Shown here piece by piece: positions 2,719 through 7,838 of a DNA stretch of 56,896 bases. The translations under genes were made by a program, and so were the position numbers. The first letter of the stretch is position 1. Each line of letters opens with the position of its first letter. This stretch comes from Paludibacteraceae bacterium (GTDB taxonomy: Bacteria; Bacteroidota; Bacteroidia; Bacteroidales; Paludibacteraceae), in contig JAKSLB010000020.1 of assembly GCA_024401435.1 (NCBI GenBank), forward strand, positions 1 through 56,896. The letters are read 5' to 3'. The notes under the pieces are model-generated. The model saw only the letters and a list, made by a program, of their open reading frames with translations. It did no database searches and was not told where the DNA came from.

Positions 2719-2726
2719 TAACTTTG
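2719..2726 (+). promoter_or_regulatory. Promoter -7 box for the carB leader transcript
   Basis: TAACTTTG fits the Bacteroidetes -7 consensus TAnnTTTG. No good TTTG lies 20 bases upstream, so the -33 element is weak. Transcription would start near 2733, giving a leader of about 170 bases before carB. Confidence 0.55.
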
Positions 2727-2768
2727 CACCCAATAAAAAATAATGTAAATCAAAGAACTAAAAAGAGT

Positions 2769-2837
2769 ATGTCCGTACATCAATACATAGTAATTTGTTG
2801 GGATGCTGTGAAGACATTGGTGTTTTGTTCTTGTTAG
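2769..2837 (+). CDS. Putative 22-residue leader peptide upstream of carB
   Basis: The frame starts at ATG 2769 and stops at TAG 2835-2837. It encodes MSVHQYIVICWDAVKTLV followed by F-C-S-C. It lies in the carB leader transcript, about 36 bases after the predicted transcription start, behind a purine-rich AAAAAGAG. Its last third is U-rich in the RNA (TTGGTGTTTTGTTCTTGT), and its stop codon lies 9 bases before the left arm of an intrinsic terminator. A ribosome stalled or finishing at this stop would cover the left arm. That is the geometry of the enterobacterial pyrBI leader, where UTP-dependent polymerase pausing decides whether a ribosome catches up in time. There is no family match for so short a peptide, and translation is inferred from position alone. 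Confidence 0.45.
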   Translation: MSVHQYIVICWDAVKTLVFCSC

Positions 2838-2846
2838 TTTTTCGTT

Positions 2847-2875
2847 GCGGTGGTAGTTTCCCCCGCTTTTTTTTT
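2847..2875 (+). terminator. Intrinsic terminator inside the carB leader (candidate attenuator)
   Basis: Left arm GCGGTGG (2847-2853), loop TAGTTT, right arm CCCCCGC (2860-2866; one U-C mismatch), then nine T (2867-2875). It lies 30 bases before the carB start and after the carB promoter, so it can only serve to cut off carB transcription conditionally. The stretch before it (2820-2846) is very T-rich. Confidence 0.65.
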
Positions 2876-2905
2876 GTTAAGAAGTTATTTAAAGAGATTA
2901 AATAT

Positions 2906-5900
2906 ATGAAGTCACAGAAAGTTAAAAAGGTCATTTTGCTAGGATCTGGAGCTTTAAAAATTGGACAAGCCGGAGAATTTGACTACTCTGGTTCACAGGC
3001 TCTAAAAGCAATGCGTGAGGAGGGTATCTCCACAGTTTTGATTAACCCTAATATCGCAACGATCCAAACGTCGGAAGGCGTAGCTGATAAGGTTTATTTC
3101 TTACCTATCACTCCTTATTTCGTTGAGGAAGTTATTAAGAAAGAACAACCTGATGGTATTTTGTTAGCTTTCGGTGGACAAACTGCATTGAACTGCGGTA
3201 CAGAACTCTACCTTTCTGGTACATTGGAGAAATATGGTGTACAAGTATTGGGTACTTCAGTTGATGCAATTATGATTACGGAAGACCGTGATCTTTTCGT
3301 TAAGAAATTAAATGAAATTCAGGCTAAGACTCCAGTTTCTCAGGCTGTAGAGAATATGCAAGATGCTTTGACTGTTGCTCGTAGAATCGGTTATCCGGTC
3401 ATGGTACGTTCAGCTTATGCACTAGGAGGTCTTGGATCAGGTATCTGTGCTAATGAAGAGGAGTTTGTTGAACTTTGTGATAGTGCTTTGGCTCATTCTA
3501 AACAAATTCTTGTTGAGGAATCATTGAAGGGTTGGAAGGAGATAGAGTTTGAGGTTATCCGTGATGCTAACGATCATTGCTTCACTGTTGTTCCAATGGA
3601 AAACTTCGACCCACTTGGAATCCACACTGGTGAAAGTATCGTTGTCGCTCCAATCATCTCTTTGACACAAGATCAAATCAATTTATTACAAGATATTGCA
3701 AAGAAAGTTGTTCGTCACATTGGTATTGTGGGTGAATGTAATATTCAATATGCATTCAATGCTGAGACAAACGACTATCGTATTATAGAAATCAATGCTC
3801 GTTTGAGCCGTTCTTCAGCATTAGCTTCTAAAGCTTCTGGTTATCCTTTGGCTTTTGTTGCTGCTAAGTTGGCTTTGGGCTATACCCTTGACCAAATTGG
3901 TGAGATGGGCACTCCAAACTCAGCATACGTTGCTCCTTCAGTAGATTACATGATTGTTAAGATTCCTCGTTGGGACTTGACCAAGTTCGTAGGTGTTGAT
4001 CGTGAAATCAACTCATCTATGAAATCGGTTGGAGAAATCATGTCTATCGGTAAATCATTCGAAGAGATCATGCAAAAAGGTCTTCGTATGATTGGTCAGG
4101 GTATGCATGGATTCGTTGGTAACCACGATTTGGAATTTGACGATTTGGATAAGGAGTTGTCGCATCCAACTGATATGCGTATCTTCGCCATTGCTGCCGC
4201 ATTGGAGAAAGGCTACTCAATTGAAAAAATCGTAGACCTTACGAAGATTGACAAGTGGTTTATCGGCAAGTTGAAAAATATCGTTGACTATACTAAAGTA
4301 TTAGGTCAATATAAGAAGATTGAAGATATCCCTGCTGACGTGATGAAAGAAGCTAAGAGACTAGGTTTCTCTGACTTCCAGATTGCGCGTTATACGGAGA
4401 ATCCGGAAAACAACATGGAGAAGGAATCACTTCGTGTTCGTGCATTACGTAAGAAACAAGGAGTTGTGCCTGTTGTTCGTCGTATCAACACAGTTGCTTC
4501 TGAACATCCAGAGTTGACCAATTACTTGTATATGACATACGGTGCAGATGAGCACAGCATCGATTATTCATACAGAAATGACAAGAACATTGTAGTTTTA
4601 GGTTCTGGTGCTTACAGAATCGGTTCTTCTGTTGAGTTCGACTGGTGTTCAGTAAACGCTGTACAAACAGCCCGTAAGTTGGGTTACAAGTCAATCATGA
4701 TCAATTACAACCCAGAGACGGTATCTACGGACTATGATATGTGCGACAGGCTATACTTTGATGAGTTGAGTTTTGAACGTGTATTGGATGTAATCGATTT
4801 GGAAAATCCTAAGGGTGTGATTGTTTCTGTTGGTGGTCAAATTCCAAACAACTTGGCAATGAAGTTACACCGTCAGAATGTACCTATCTTAGGAACATCA
4901 CCAGTATCAATCGACCGTGCTGAGAACAGACATAAGTTCTCTGCTATGTTGGATCAACTTGGTATTGACCAACCACGTTGGGGTGAGTTGACAAGTCCAG
5001 AAGATATCGATAACTTTATTAATGAAGTTGGATTCCCAGTATTGATTCGTCCTTCCTATGTACTTTCAGGTGCTGCCATGAATGTTTGCTACAATCGTGA
5101 GCAAATGGATACGTTCTTGAAGATGGCTGCTAAGGTATCTAAAGAGTATCCAGTAGTTGTTTCTTCTTTCTTGCAAAATGCAAAAGAGGTGGAGTTTGAT
5201 GCGGTAGCTAAGAATGGTGAGATTATCGAATATGCAATTTCAGAACACGTTGAGTTTGCAGGAGTACACTCAGGAGATGCAACTTTGGTCTTCCCAGCAC
5301 AAAAATTGTATTTGGAGACAGTTCGTCAAATTAAGAGAGTAAGTAAGAAGATTGCAAAAGAATTGAATATCAGTGGACCATTCAATATTCAATATTTGGC
5401 TAAGGAAAATGCTGTTAAGGTAATTGAGTGTAACTTGCGTTCATCACGTAGTTTCCCATTTGTATCTAAGATATTGAAGAGAAACTTCATTGAGACGGCA
5501 ACTAAGATTATGTTGGATGTTCCAGTTGAAAAACCAGATTCATCCACATTCGATATCGATTATGTGGGTGTTAAGGCATCACAATTCTCATTCGCACGTT
5601 TGCACAAGGCAGATCCAATCTTGGGTGTAGATATGTCTTCAACAGGTGAGGTAGGATGCTTGGGTGCAGATTTTGATGAGGCATTAATCAACTCATTAAC
5701 ATCAGTAGGATATCACGTTCCAGAGAAGGGTATTTTGGTATCGTCTGGAGATATTCGTGGTAAGGTAGACTTGTTGGATGCATGTAAATTGTTAGATGCT
5801 CATGGTTATAAGATCTATGCAACAGAAGGAACAAGAAACTTCTTGGTAGAGCATGGTGTAAATGCCACAGCAGTAAGCTGGCCAGATGAGAATAATCACA

Positions 5901-6127
5901 ATGTAAACATCATTTCATTGCTACAAGAACATCAAGTAGACTTGGTTATTAATATACCAAAGAATCATACGAAGAGGGAATTGACGAATGGATATAAGAT
6001 TCGTCGTTCTGCAATTGATCACAATATTCCATTGATGACCAATGCAAGATTAGCAAGTGCATTTATCAAGGCATTCTGTGAGAAAGCTAAACAGGATATC
6101 CAGATAAAGAGCTGGCAAGAATATTAA
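2906..6127 (+). CDS. carB: Carbamoyl-phosphate synthase large subunit
   Basis: CarB uses bicarbonate, ammonia from the small subunit CarA and two ATP to make carbamoyl phosphate for pyrimidine and arginine synthesis. The start at 2906 (MKSQKVKKVILLGSGALKIG) gives 1073 residues, the same as the E. coli enzyme. The frame is open further upstream to 2795, but that extension runs through the leader terminator and is not family-like. Two homologous halves are visible, each with an ATP-grasp domain: half one begins with the GALKIGQAGEFDYSG loop, half two (about residue 555 on) with VVLGSGAYRIGSSVEFDW. The C-terminal 130 residues form the MGS-like regulatory domain, where allosteric nucleotides bind. 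No carA is adjacent. Expression is probably set by the leader attenuator. Confidence 0.97.
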   Translation: MKSQKVKKVILLGSGALKIGQAGEFDYSGSQALKAMREEGISTVLINPNIATIQTSEGVADKVYFLPITPYFVEEVIKKEQPDGILLAFGGQTALNCGTELYLSGTLEKYGVQVLGTSVDAIMITEDRDLFVKKLNEIQAKTPVSQAVENMQDALTVARRIGYPVMVRSAYALGGLGSGICANEEEFVELCDSALAHSKQILVEESLKGWKEIEFEVIRDANDHCFTVVPMENFDPLGIHTGESIVVAPIISLTQDQINLLQDIAKKVVRHIGIVGECNIQYAFNAETNDYRIIEINARLSRSSALASKASGYPLAFVAAKLALGYTLDQIGEMGTPNSAYVAPSVDYMIVKIPRWDLTKFVGVDREINSSMKSVGEIMSIGKSFEEIMQKGLRMIGQGMHGFVGNHDLEFDDLDKELSHPTDMRIFAIAAALEKGYSIEKIVDLTKIDKWFIGKLKNIVDYTKVLGQYKKIEDIPADVMKEAKRLGFSDFQIARYTENPENNMEKESLRVRALRKKQGVVPVVRRINTVASEHPELTNYLYMTYGADEHSIDYSYRNDKNIVVLGSGAYRIGSSVEFDWCSVNAVQTARKLGYKSIMINYNPETVSTDYDMCDRLYFDELSFERVLDVIDLENPKGVIVSVGGQIPNNLAMKLHRQNVPILGTSPVSIDRAENRHKFSAMLDQLGIDQPRWGELTSPEDIDNFINEVGFPVLIRPSYVLSGAAMNVCYNREQMDTFLKMAAKVSKEYPVVVSSFLQNAKEVEFDAVAKNGEIIEYAISEHVEFAGVHSGDATLVFPAQKLYLETVRQIKRVSKKIAKELNISGPFNIQYLAKENAVKVIECNLRSSRSFPFVSKILKRNFIETATKIMLDVPVEKPDSSTFDIDYVGVKASQFSFARLHKADPILGVDMSSTGEVGCLGADFDEALINSLTSVGYHVPEKGILVSSGDIRGKVDLLDACKLLDAHGYKIYATEGTRNFLVEHGVNATAVSWPDENNHNVNIISLLQEHQVDLVINIPKNHTKRELTNGYKIRRSAIDHNIPLMTNARLASAFIKAFCEKAKQDIQIKSWQEY

Positions 6128-6278: not shown

Positions 6279-6286
6279 TATTTTTG
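6279..6286 (+). promoter_or_regulatory. Promoter -7 box before the first glycosyltransferase
   Basis: TATTTTTG fits TAnnTTTG. Transcription from about 6293 would exclude the possible upstream start at 6284 and supports the ATG at 6311. A clear -33 TTTG is not seen. Confidence 0.4.
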
Positions 6287-6310
6287 CTATTACTTTTAGA
6301 AAGCGAGAAT

Positions 6311-7021
6311 ATGGATTGTAGAGTGAGCGTATGTATGCCCACATATAATGGGGAGCGGTACATACGAAGACAGTTGGAAACTATATTGAAACAATTGGGA
6401 GATGAGGATGAAATTATTATATCAGATGATTCTTCCATCGACAATACACTTTCAATTGTAGAATCTTTTCAAGACTCAAGAATAAAAATCTTGAAAGGAA
6501 ACAAGTTTCACAATCCGGTATACAACCTCGAAAATGCATTAAAGCATGCTAAGGGTGAATATATTTTTTTAGCAGACCAAGATGATGTGTGGTTGGATGA
6601 TAAGGTGGAGGAAATGCTGCTGTTGTTGAGAGATTATGATTTAGTAGTTTCGGATTGTAAGGTAGTAGATAGTGAAGAACACGTATTACATCCTTCTTTT
6701 TTTAAATTACTTAATTCTGGAAGTGGATTTGTGAAAAATTTAATGAAAAACACTTATATAGGTTGCTGTATGACTTTTAAACGTGAAGTTTTGTCGTATG
6801 TGCTTCCATTTCCATCAAATATACCGATGCATGATGTGTGGATAGCATTGAATGTAGAGTATAGAAGGAAAAAAGTTTTATTTTTTGACAAACCATTAAT
6901 CTTATATCGCAGGCATGGCGATAACACCTCAACGTGTTCTGAACCAAGTCGGCGACCATTGAAAGACAAATTTATGGATCGATGGCATTTGATTACCGCG
7001 ATTCTTAAACATTCGAAGTGA
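6311..7021 (+). CDS. Family 2 glycosyltransferase
   Basis: 236 residues from ATG 6311 (MDCRVSVCMPTYNGERYIRR). It has the GT-A fold marks of GT2: the N-terminal nucleotide-binding strand VSVCMPTYNGE, IISDDSSIDNT with the DD pair near residue 45, and ADQDDVWLDDK near residue 95, which holds the metal-binding acidic motif. MHDVWIALN near 175 is typical of the rhamnosyltransferase-like subgroup. The enzyme would transfer a sugar from a nucleotide donor to a lipid-linked glycan on the inner face of the cytoplasmic membrane. Donor and linkage cannot be told from sequence. The stop nearly touches the next start at 7023, so the two glycosyltransferases form an operon. Confidence 0.88.
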   Translation: MDCRVSVCMPTYNGERYIRRQLETILKQLGDEDEIIISDDSSIDNTLSIVESFQDSRIKILKGNKFHNPVYNLENALKHAKGEYIFLADQDDVWLDDKVEEMLLLLRDYDLVVSDCKVVDSEEHVLHPSFFKLLNSGSGFVKNLMKNTYIGCCMTFKREVLSYVLPFPSNIPMHDVWIALNVEYRRKKVLFFDKPLILYRRHGDNTSTCSEPSRRPLKDKFMDRWHLITAILKHSK

Positions 7022-7022
7022 T

Positions 7023-7838
7023 ATGTACCAGGTAACGGCATCTATAGTTATATACAAAAATGACAGGGAGGAGTTGTTGAAGGCGATTCATTCATTCTTG
7101 AATACTGAGATGAATGTAAAGCTATTCTTGATTGATAATTCACCTACTGATGAGATAAAGACAATTATCCCACAGGATAGTCGTATTGAGTATGCTTTTC
7201 AGGGGGAAAATCTTGGTTTTGGAAAAGCTCACAACATTGTCATGGAGAAGGTGAGAAATTTGTCTACCTACCATTTAGTGCTAAATCCGGATATTTATTT
7301 TGAAACAGGCGTAATTGAAGCCTTATATGATTATATGGAAAAGAATGAAAATGTGGGTCTTATTTCTCCTGACATTTTCCTTCCGAGTGGTGAAAGAGCT
7401 TATTCTTGTCGCTTGTTGCCTAAACCAAGTACCTTGATATCTAGACGTCTATGGCCTGCTTCTTCTAAGGATATTTATACAAAAGTATCTTATGATAAAC
7501 CTTTGAGCTCGCCTTGGGTTTCAGGATGCTTTATGTTTGTACGTACTTCTCTTTTTGATAAGATTGGATTGTTCGACGAACGATATTTTATGTATTGTGA
7601 AGATTTAGACTATTCTCGTCGTGTACATTCTTCTAAAATGGATATTGTTTATTATCCTATGGTAAAAGCAATTCATGTTTTCCATAGAGATTCTGCAAAA
7701 TCATTTAAAATGCTTTTGATTCACATATCTTCTGCTTTTAAATATTTTACTAAGTGGGGGTGGTTCTGTGATAAGGAAAGAGACGAAATCAATGAAAAAT
7801 CGATACAGAATTTAGTCCTGGTTGAGGATGAAAAATAA
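7023..7838 (+). CDS. Family 2 glycosyltransferase, WbbL/rhamnosyltransferase-like
   Basis: 271 residues. The order of motifs is that of WbbL-like GT2 enzymes: ASIVIYKNDREEL at the N-terminus, LFLIDNSP near residue 40, NLGFGKAHN near residue 68, VLNPDIYFE near residue 90 (metal-binding position), WVSGCFMFVRTSLFDKIGLF near 165, and FDERYFMYCEDLDYSRRVH near 185 with the general-base region E-D-x-D. These enzymes often transfer rhamnose or another deoxyhexose in O-antigen or capsule synthesis; the donor here is inferred only. It is the last gene before a strong hairpin terminator. Confidence 0.88.
   Translation: MYQVTASIVIYKNDREELLKAIHSFLNTEMNVKLFLIDNSPTDEIKTIIPQDSRIEYAFQGENLGFGKAHNIVMEKVRNLSTYHLVLNPDIYFETGVIEALYDYMEKNENVGLISPDIFLPSGERAYSCRLLPKPSTLISRRLWPASSKDIYTKVSYDKPLSSPWVSGCFMFVRTSLFDKIGLFDERYFMYCEDLDYSRRVHSSKMDIVYYPMVKAIHVFHRDSAKSFKMLLIHISSAFKYFTKWGWFCDKERDEINEKSIQNLVLVEDEK

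Follow-up and report, generated by a model that had tools for sequence, protein, structure and literature searches.

Described attenuators of pyrimidine genes and the carB leader

The pyrE attenuator of Escherichia coli lies behind rph, with a stop codon a few nucleotides before the terminator. In the pyrBI leader of the same organism, tight coupling over the leader prevents formation of the terminator (PMC5021804, PMC4824070). In an E. coli system, a terminator a few base pairs behind a stop codon was almost completely repressed, and termination was maximal beyond 27 nt from the stop codon (PMC4824070); pyrL has been used in the same sense (PMC5021804). Among carbamoyl-phosphate synthase genes, carAB of Pseudomonas aeruginosa is regulated by pyrimidines, possibly through an attenuator with a leader peptide (PMC4997734), and the carA motif, which occurs mostly in Polynucleobacter, of the beta-proteobacteria, has been proposed to be a riboswitch acting on translation (PMC8632094). 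Long 5' UTRs with short ORFs resembling leader peptides are described for Bacteroides thetaiotaomicron in a report whose available text does not name carB (PMC7366714), and the available main text of a survey of 5' terminators contains neither carB nor "Bacteroid" (PMC2965389). Our literature search, most subscription papers lying outside its scope, found no paper on a device such as the one described here, and its novelty is thus unproven.

The window, i.e., the whole stretch of DNA analysed, comprises 56,896 nucleotides from a Paludibacteraceae bacterium, and all the parts of the carB leader lie on its forward strand. A -7 promoter box of the Bacteroidota TAnnTTTG type, TAACTTTG, is found at 2719-2726, 128 nt upstream of the terminator stem, and the transcript would be expected to start at about 2731-2736. 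TAnnTTTG is the -7 box consensus of Bacteroidota. The same consensus is given for a flavobacterium (PMC9723704). The box is followed by a leader ORF of 22 codons, MSVHQYIVICWDAVKTLVFCSC, at 2769-2837 (ATG at 2769, TAG at 2835-2837), and by a U-rich tract at 2817-2846, in which 20 of 30 positions are T and which is the proposed UTP-sensitive pause region. Nine nucleotides behind the TAG begins an intrinsic terminator, the candidate attenuator (2847-2875), made up of the arms GCGGTGG (2847-2853) and CCCCCGC (2860-2866), the loop TAGTTT and a run of nine T (2867-2875). The proposed target of regulation is carB itself (2906-6127), the carA-unlinked paralog, coding for a carbamoyl-phosphate synthase large subunit of 1073 amino acids that matches the profile TIGR01369 along its whole length with 1420 bits (cut-off 1027). 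A preliminary description of this DNA had placed the box, the ORF, the T-rich tract, the terminator and the carB ATG, and all of these positions were confirmed base for base. Matches to sigma-70 type promoters also occur in the window (5 versus 4.7 expected) and were disregarded as being of the wrong promoter type.

Our best reading is that this is a known kind of attenuator, the pyrBI/pyrE kind, with carB as its gene and Bacteroidales as its host. We put the probability that the region works as a UTP-sensing, ribosome-coupled transcription attenuator of this kind at roughly two in three. In such a device, RNA polymerase would start near 2731 and make a short leader before entering the U-rich stretch, within which the 22-codon ORF ends. 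When UTP is plentiful, the polymerase would pass through, the ribosome would lag behind and the hairpin at 2847-2866 would form, upon which transcription would stop in the U run ahead of carB. At low UTP, the polymerase would slow in the U-rich stretch and the ribosome would catch up; at the stop codon, its footprint would prevent the hairpin while the polymerase moves on, and carB would be transcribed. We infer the transcript start, the translation of the ORF, the pausing and the UTP response from the sequence, and UTP is taken as the signal because of the identity of the gene, the U tract and the preference for NNU codons described below.

Like E. coli pyrBI, the carB region has a leader ORF, a U-rich tract and a terminator with a gene of UMP synthesis behind them. 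The U tract of pyrL begins 28 nt before the stem; that of the window occupies the last 30 nt ahead of its stem. The E. coli attenuator and the putative carB device differ in host (here Bacteroidota) and gene (here carB). In addition, pyrL has 44 codons and ends 47 nt past the start of the stem, whereas the window ORF has half as many and ends before the stem, and pyrL has a hairpin before its U tract, whereas a pause hairpin in the carB leaders is weak. The carB leader and pyrE are alike in that a stop codon falls a few nucleotides before the terminator, but what is translated is a full gene in the case of pyrE and a dedicated mini-ORF in the case of carB. P. aeruginosa carAB shares with the locus a carbamoyl-phosphate synthase gene and a leader peptide, but it is part of a carABgreA operon and is under arginine control too; the carA motif is likewise a cis element before a car gene, but it is an extended imperfect hairpin near the ribosome site.

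Conservation of the arrangement upstream of carB

The solo (carA-unlinked) type of carB was present in 15 of the 16 genus genomes searched (in two fragments in G011; G005 is without it), and all 15 genus copies have a terminator, which ends 39-49 nt before carB. Upstream regions of solo carB were drawn from the genus, from 48 further places in the family and from 80 named loci, five of which (L031-L034 and L048) duplicated genus contigs and were removed; the 13 loci of a carA-linked paralog (L016-L028) were left out. In the resulting set of 138 regions, a terminator lies 20-110 nt upstream of carB in 95 and is absent by this criterion in 43. Some genomes are represented by two regions, one from a named contig and one from the genome search (e.g., L035/L172); such duplicates are merged by clustering among the leaders and left unmerged among the 43. 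Ten terminator-bearing regions were excluded by hand, namely five with another arrangement (L043, L047, L085, L094 and L217) and five family genomes in which a tRNA-Gln gene (anticodon ctg) lies directly before the terminator of solo carB (L189, L190, L192, L193 and L195). This left 85 leaders, which group into 49 sequence clusters at about 72% identity. In L014 and L015, the terminator nearest carB was chosen by hand. Among the named carriers of a terminator are Bacteroides, Parabacteroides and Phocaeicola species as well as Paludibacteraceae MAGs. Such an attenuator is best read as conserved but patchy in Bacteroidales, because 43 regions are without a terminator; the seven named loci with Muribaculaceae, Paramuribaculum or Duncaniella in their titles all belong to these.

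A search of the region 75-175 nt upstream of the stem found a TAnn(n)TTTG box in 37 of the 49 clusters versus 7.9 expected, and in these clusters the box is 94-162 nt away from the stem. The promoter block AAAAAAAGTGTAACTTTGCACCCAAT is invariant in all five aligned leaders (that of the window and L003-L006 of the genus). The named loci hold 75 carB genes, of which 40 are preceded by a terminator and 24 by promoter box and terminator together (counted before the exclusion by hand, with L085, set aside later, among the 24). The corresponding counts for control gene starts at the same loci are 18/162 and 4/162, and the latter should truly be 1/159 because three of the four are carB under another start. 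The carB and control samples are not exactly matched, since control starts were required to have at least 150 nt upstream and the carB sample was drawn without this requirement. Judged by these counts, the arrangement in front of carB is not a product of chance. The leader had no match when compared with plasmids.

The leader ORF

In 31 of the 49 clusters, an ATG-initiated ORF of 20 codons or more stops no further than 12 nt from the stem, the expectation from dinucleotide shuffles being 4.4; the remaining 18 have no such ORF. When the stops were binned by position relative to the stem (-60 to -37, -36 to -13, -12 to +12, +13 to +36 and +37 to +60), the observed numbers were 0, 1, 31, 9 and 4, with 1.6, 2.9, 4.4, 3.1 and 5.7 expected. 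These statistics and those on codons and T content rest on a fixed stop-to-stem interval, and single frames may be wrong: the automatic choice picked other frames in some leaders (e.g., L035-L039), and the L077 frame in the codon analysis differs from that common to the other Bacteroides leaders. Of the 15 leaders in the genus, 11 contain an ATG ORF whose stop lies a little upstream of the stem (partly read by eye). The ORF of L006 ends 48 nt beyond the start of the stem, past the terminator, and L009 has no ORF of at least 10 codons ending between -30 and +60 of the stem. By eye, the leader ORF of L013 and of L029 requires a GTG start.

Ungapped clade alignments contain 33, 33 and 58 variable columns at codon positions 1, 2 and 3, respectively (p 0.006). 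Aligned with the window's leader, L003-L005 show no indel in the ORF and L006 shows a single one, of 3 nt; other indels are present in the 5' UTR and the spacer between stop and stem. The leader peptides vary freely from clade to clade. The leader ORF is supported as real by this comparison, and it would presumably be translated.

The U-rich tract

Across the 49 clusters, T increases from a fraction of 0.24 at a distance of 100 nt before the stem to 0.56 in the last 10 nt, while the C fraction stays at 0.08-0.22 along the leaders (0.12 and 0.08 in the two 10-nt bins nearest the stem). Because C stays low as T rises, the enrichment is one of U and not of pyrimidines in general. In 44/49 clusters, the highest T content of any 15-nt segment is above the shuffle mean. 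Ordinary 3' terminators at the same loci (n=76) have a T fraction of 0.22-0.32 over the 60 nt before the stem and an A fraction of 0.51 in the last 10 nt.

The bias extends to the choice of codons. In the last nine codons of 33 leader ORFs, U makes up 0.45, 0.52 and 0.56 at codon positions 1, 2 and 3, and NNU to NNC codons stand at 167:26 compared with 87:45 in the first nine (p 1.7e-5), the U share in carB genes being 55% for comparison. L045 reaches its U content via Val codons, with four GTT in a row. These data support a tract ahead of the stem that is U-rich, neither C-rich nor residue-specific.

Two other readings in which a ribosome controls the terminator have to be weighed here. In the first, the leader would be a general sensor of coupling: translation of the ORF would occlude the terminator, and the variable would be ribosome supply, translation speed or another nucleotide. 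The pinning of the ORF stop to the terminator in the 31 clusters fits this, as do the pyrB leaders, which show a weaker link between ORF and terminator without U enrichment. However, translation alone leaves the U tract and the NNU preference unexplained, and the target is a gene of pyrimidine synthesis; we regard this reading as unlikely. In the second, the leader peptide would sense an amino acid (e.g., Phe, via UUU codons) through stalling and an antiterminator hairpin. Phe is found among the last nine codons of 29 of the 33 leaders, and clues of leader-peptide attenuation before amino-acid operons are reported for a flavobacterium (PMC9723704). Against it, no residue was found to be common to the last nine codons of all 33 leaders (L045, L058, L064 and L110 lack Phe there), and NNU is preferred to NNC despite encoding the same residue. 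Moreover, the left arm of the terminator pairs with upstream RNA at chance level (mean z 0.10; p <=0.05 in 3/49 clusters), so that an amino-acid sensor appears quite improbable.

Terminator stem and other RNA structures

The window terminator folds at -9.2 kcal/mol (z -3.1 versus shuffles). Its stem has one internal T.C mismatch, which is probably why a simple pattern scan for terminators did not list the hairpin; folding was used in its place. In the 41 GCG-anchored clusters, the outer three pairs (GCG) are invariant, while pairs 4-10 vary among several standard pair types, with some positions unpaired. The stems of the other 8 of the 49 clusters are different.

The invariant outer pairs in 41/49 clusters could mark a binding site, as expected if an RNA-binding regulator or a riboswitch (PyrR, or an unknown aptamer or protein) acted on the terminator, and 15 of 16 genomes contain sub-threshold matches to the PyrR model (the best with 31 bits, cut-off 138). 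None of the 16 genomes has a PyrR above the cut-off, compared with 6 of 14 control genomes. In the window, no Rfam family reached its gathering score, and a permissive scan gave only L20_leader (E 0.63, 17.4 bits versus a gathering score of 58.7). The leaders, furthermore, are diverse enough to split into the 49 clusters at about 72% identity. We consider a dedicated regulator or riboswitch to be very improbable. That the hairpin has no regulatory role, being the terminator of an upstream transcript or a chance fold, is scarcely credible: 43/138 regions do without a terminator and the one behind tRNA-Gln in five genomes may simply end the tRNA transcript, but a promoter box lies upstream of the stem at the distances given above in the window and in 37/49 clusters, and only 1/159 control genes have box and terminator together.

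A mid-leader hairpin at which the polymerase could pause was found at p <=0.05 in 11/49 clusters and in 7/49 for a control stretch, with p 0.42 in the window itself. In one clade of eight sequences, one of its six pairs is changed on both sides in one sequence and five are invariant, and 69 of 500 shuffles scored as high. A conserved pause hairpin before the U tract is at best weakly suggested by these data.

The pyrBI-like device that the preliminary description had proposed is supported by the promoter, the ORF pinned to the terminator, the U-rich tract and the varying stem pairs, and it is also consistent with the lack of an antiterminator, of a PyrR above cut-off and of an Rfam match at gathering score. 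Comparison among relatives, suggested there as a check, yielded both the conserved short ORF and a stem varying among standard pair types, and the remark that PyrR or a riboswitch is not visible held up in the searches. The likeness to pyrBI extends to most of its sequence predictions, with the weak pause hairpin as the exception, and the leader ORF stood up with the qualification that its stop usually falls just before or inside the left arm, which is closer to pyrE.

If the UTP-sensing reading is true, this type of attenuation extends beyond the proteobacteria in which it is known, and gut Bacteroidales tune their carbamoyl phosphate supply without a dedicated regulatory protein. Ribosome-polymerase coupling in Bacteroidota would also become directly testable, because the device depends on a ribosome able to draw level with the polymerase; leaders of this type occur in named Bacteroides species.

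Two kinds of CarB

The genus holds two kinds of CarB. The solo kind is 89-98% identical to that of the window, and the second kind, at 13 loci (L016-L028), is 64% identical to it. The second carB sits behind a carA-like frame in 9/9 loci examined; in L016 this frame matches carA, and the gene preceding it matches the C-terminal part of CTP synthase. Within 220 nt before the second carB, a promoter box was found at 0/13 loci and a hairpin only in L027, where it lies inside carA. The attenuator-like device, as far as these upstream regions tell, belongs to the carA-unlinked CarB paralog. The genome of the window has solo carB only and no carA above cut-off, the absence of carA not being established because the assembly is 93% complete. 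In G084 (C67) and G145 (C105), a solo-type carB lies directly behind a carB of the other kind (65% identical), which suggests a tandem duplication.

Glutamine is a substrate of carbamoyl-phosphate synthase. The position of tRNA-Gln next to the carB terminator in the five family genomes mentioned above may be a coincidence. A tRNA-Gly gene (anticodon ccc) lies a short distance upstream of carB in L060, L069 and L201.

pyrB, pyrE and a possible pyrimidine regulon

A terminator of the form CCAAY...RTTGG precedes pyrB in 28 of the 42 pyrB loci read (genus and family; L111-L125 and L226-L245). ORFs of at least 18 codons with a stop no more than 14 nt from the stem were found in 6 of 16 clusters of pyrB leaders versus 1.7 expected; in the genus, the pyrB leaders have ORFs of 6-11 codons or ORFs that stop 27-30 nt before the stem. 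Composition profiles of 26 pyrB leaders show enrichment in A instead of U ahead of the stem. Since pyrB has a leader and terminator without a U-rich tract, pausing at U may not be the only signal, and pyrB is the chief ground for this doubt. A promoter-leader-terminator arrangement before pyrE was seen by eye in 0/14 genus regions. UMP synthesis in Bacteroidales may form a small attenuation regulon, with separate leader ORF-terminator devices before the carA-unlinked carB and before pyrB, that of carB reading UTP through its selected U tract and coupling; we see this as an evenly balanced proposition. If true, it would place nucleotide sensing of the pyrBI type and functional coupling in Bacteroidota.

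The pyrB gene of the window's own genome (L120, G000:C131:13862-14740) has a terminator of the CCAAY...RTTGG form in front of it. In the window, two BspA-type leucine-rich repeat proteins (PF13306) with signal-like N-termini are encoded upstream of the carB promoter (314-1447 and 1465-2304), and two family 2 glycosyltransferase genes (PF00535) lie downstream of carB at 6284-7838.
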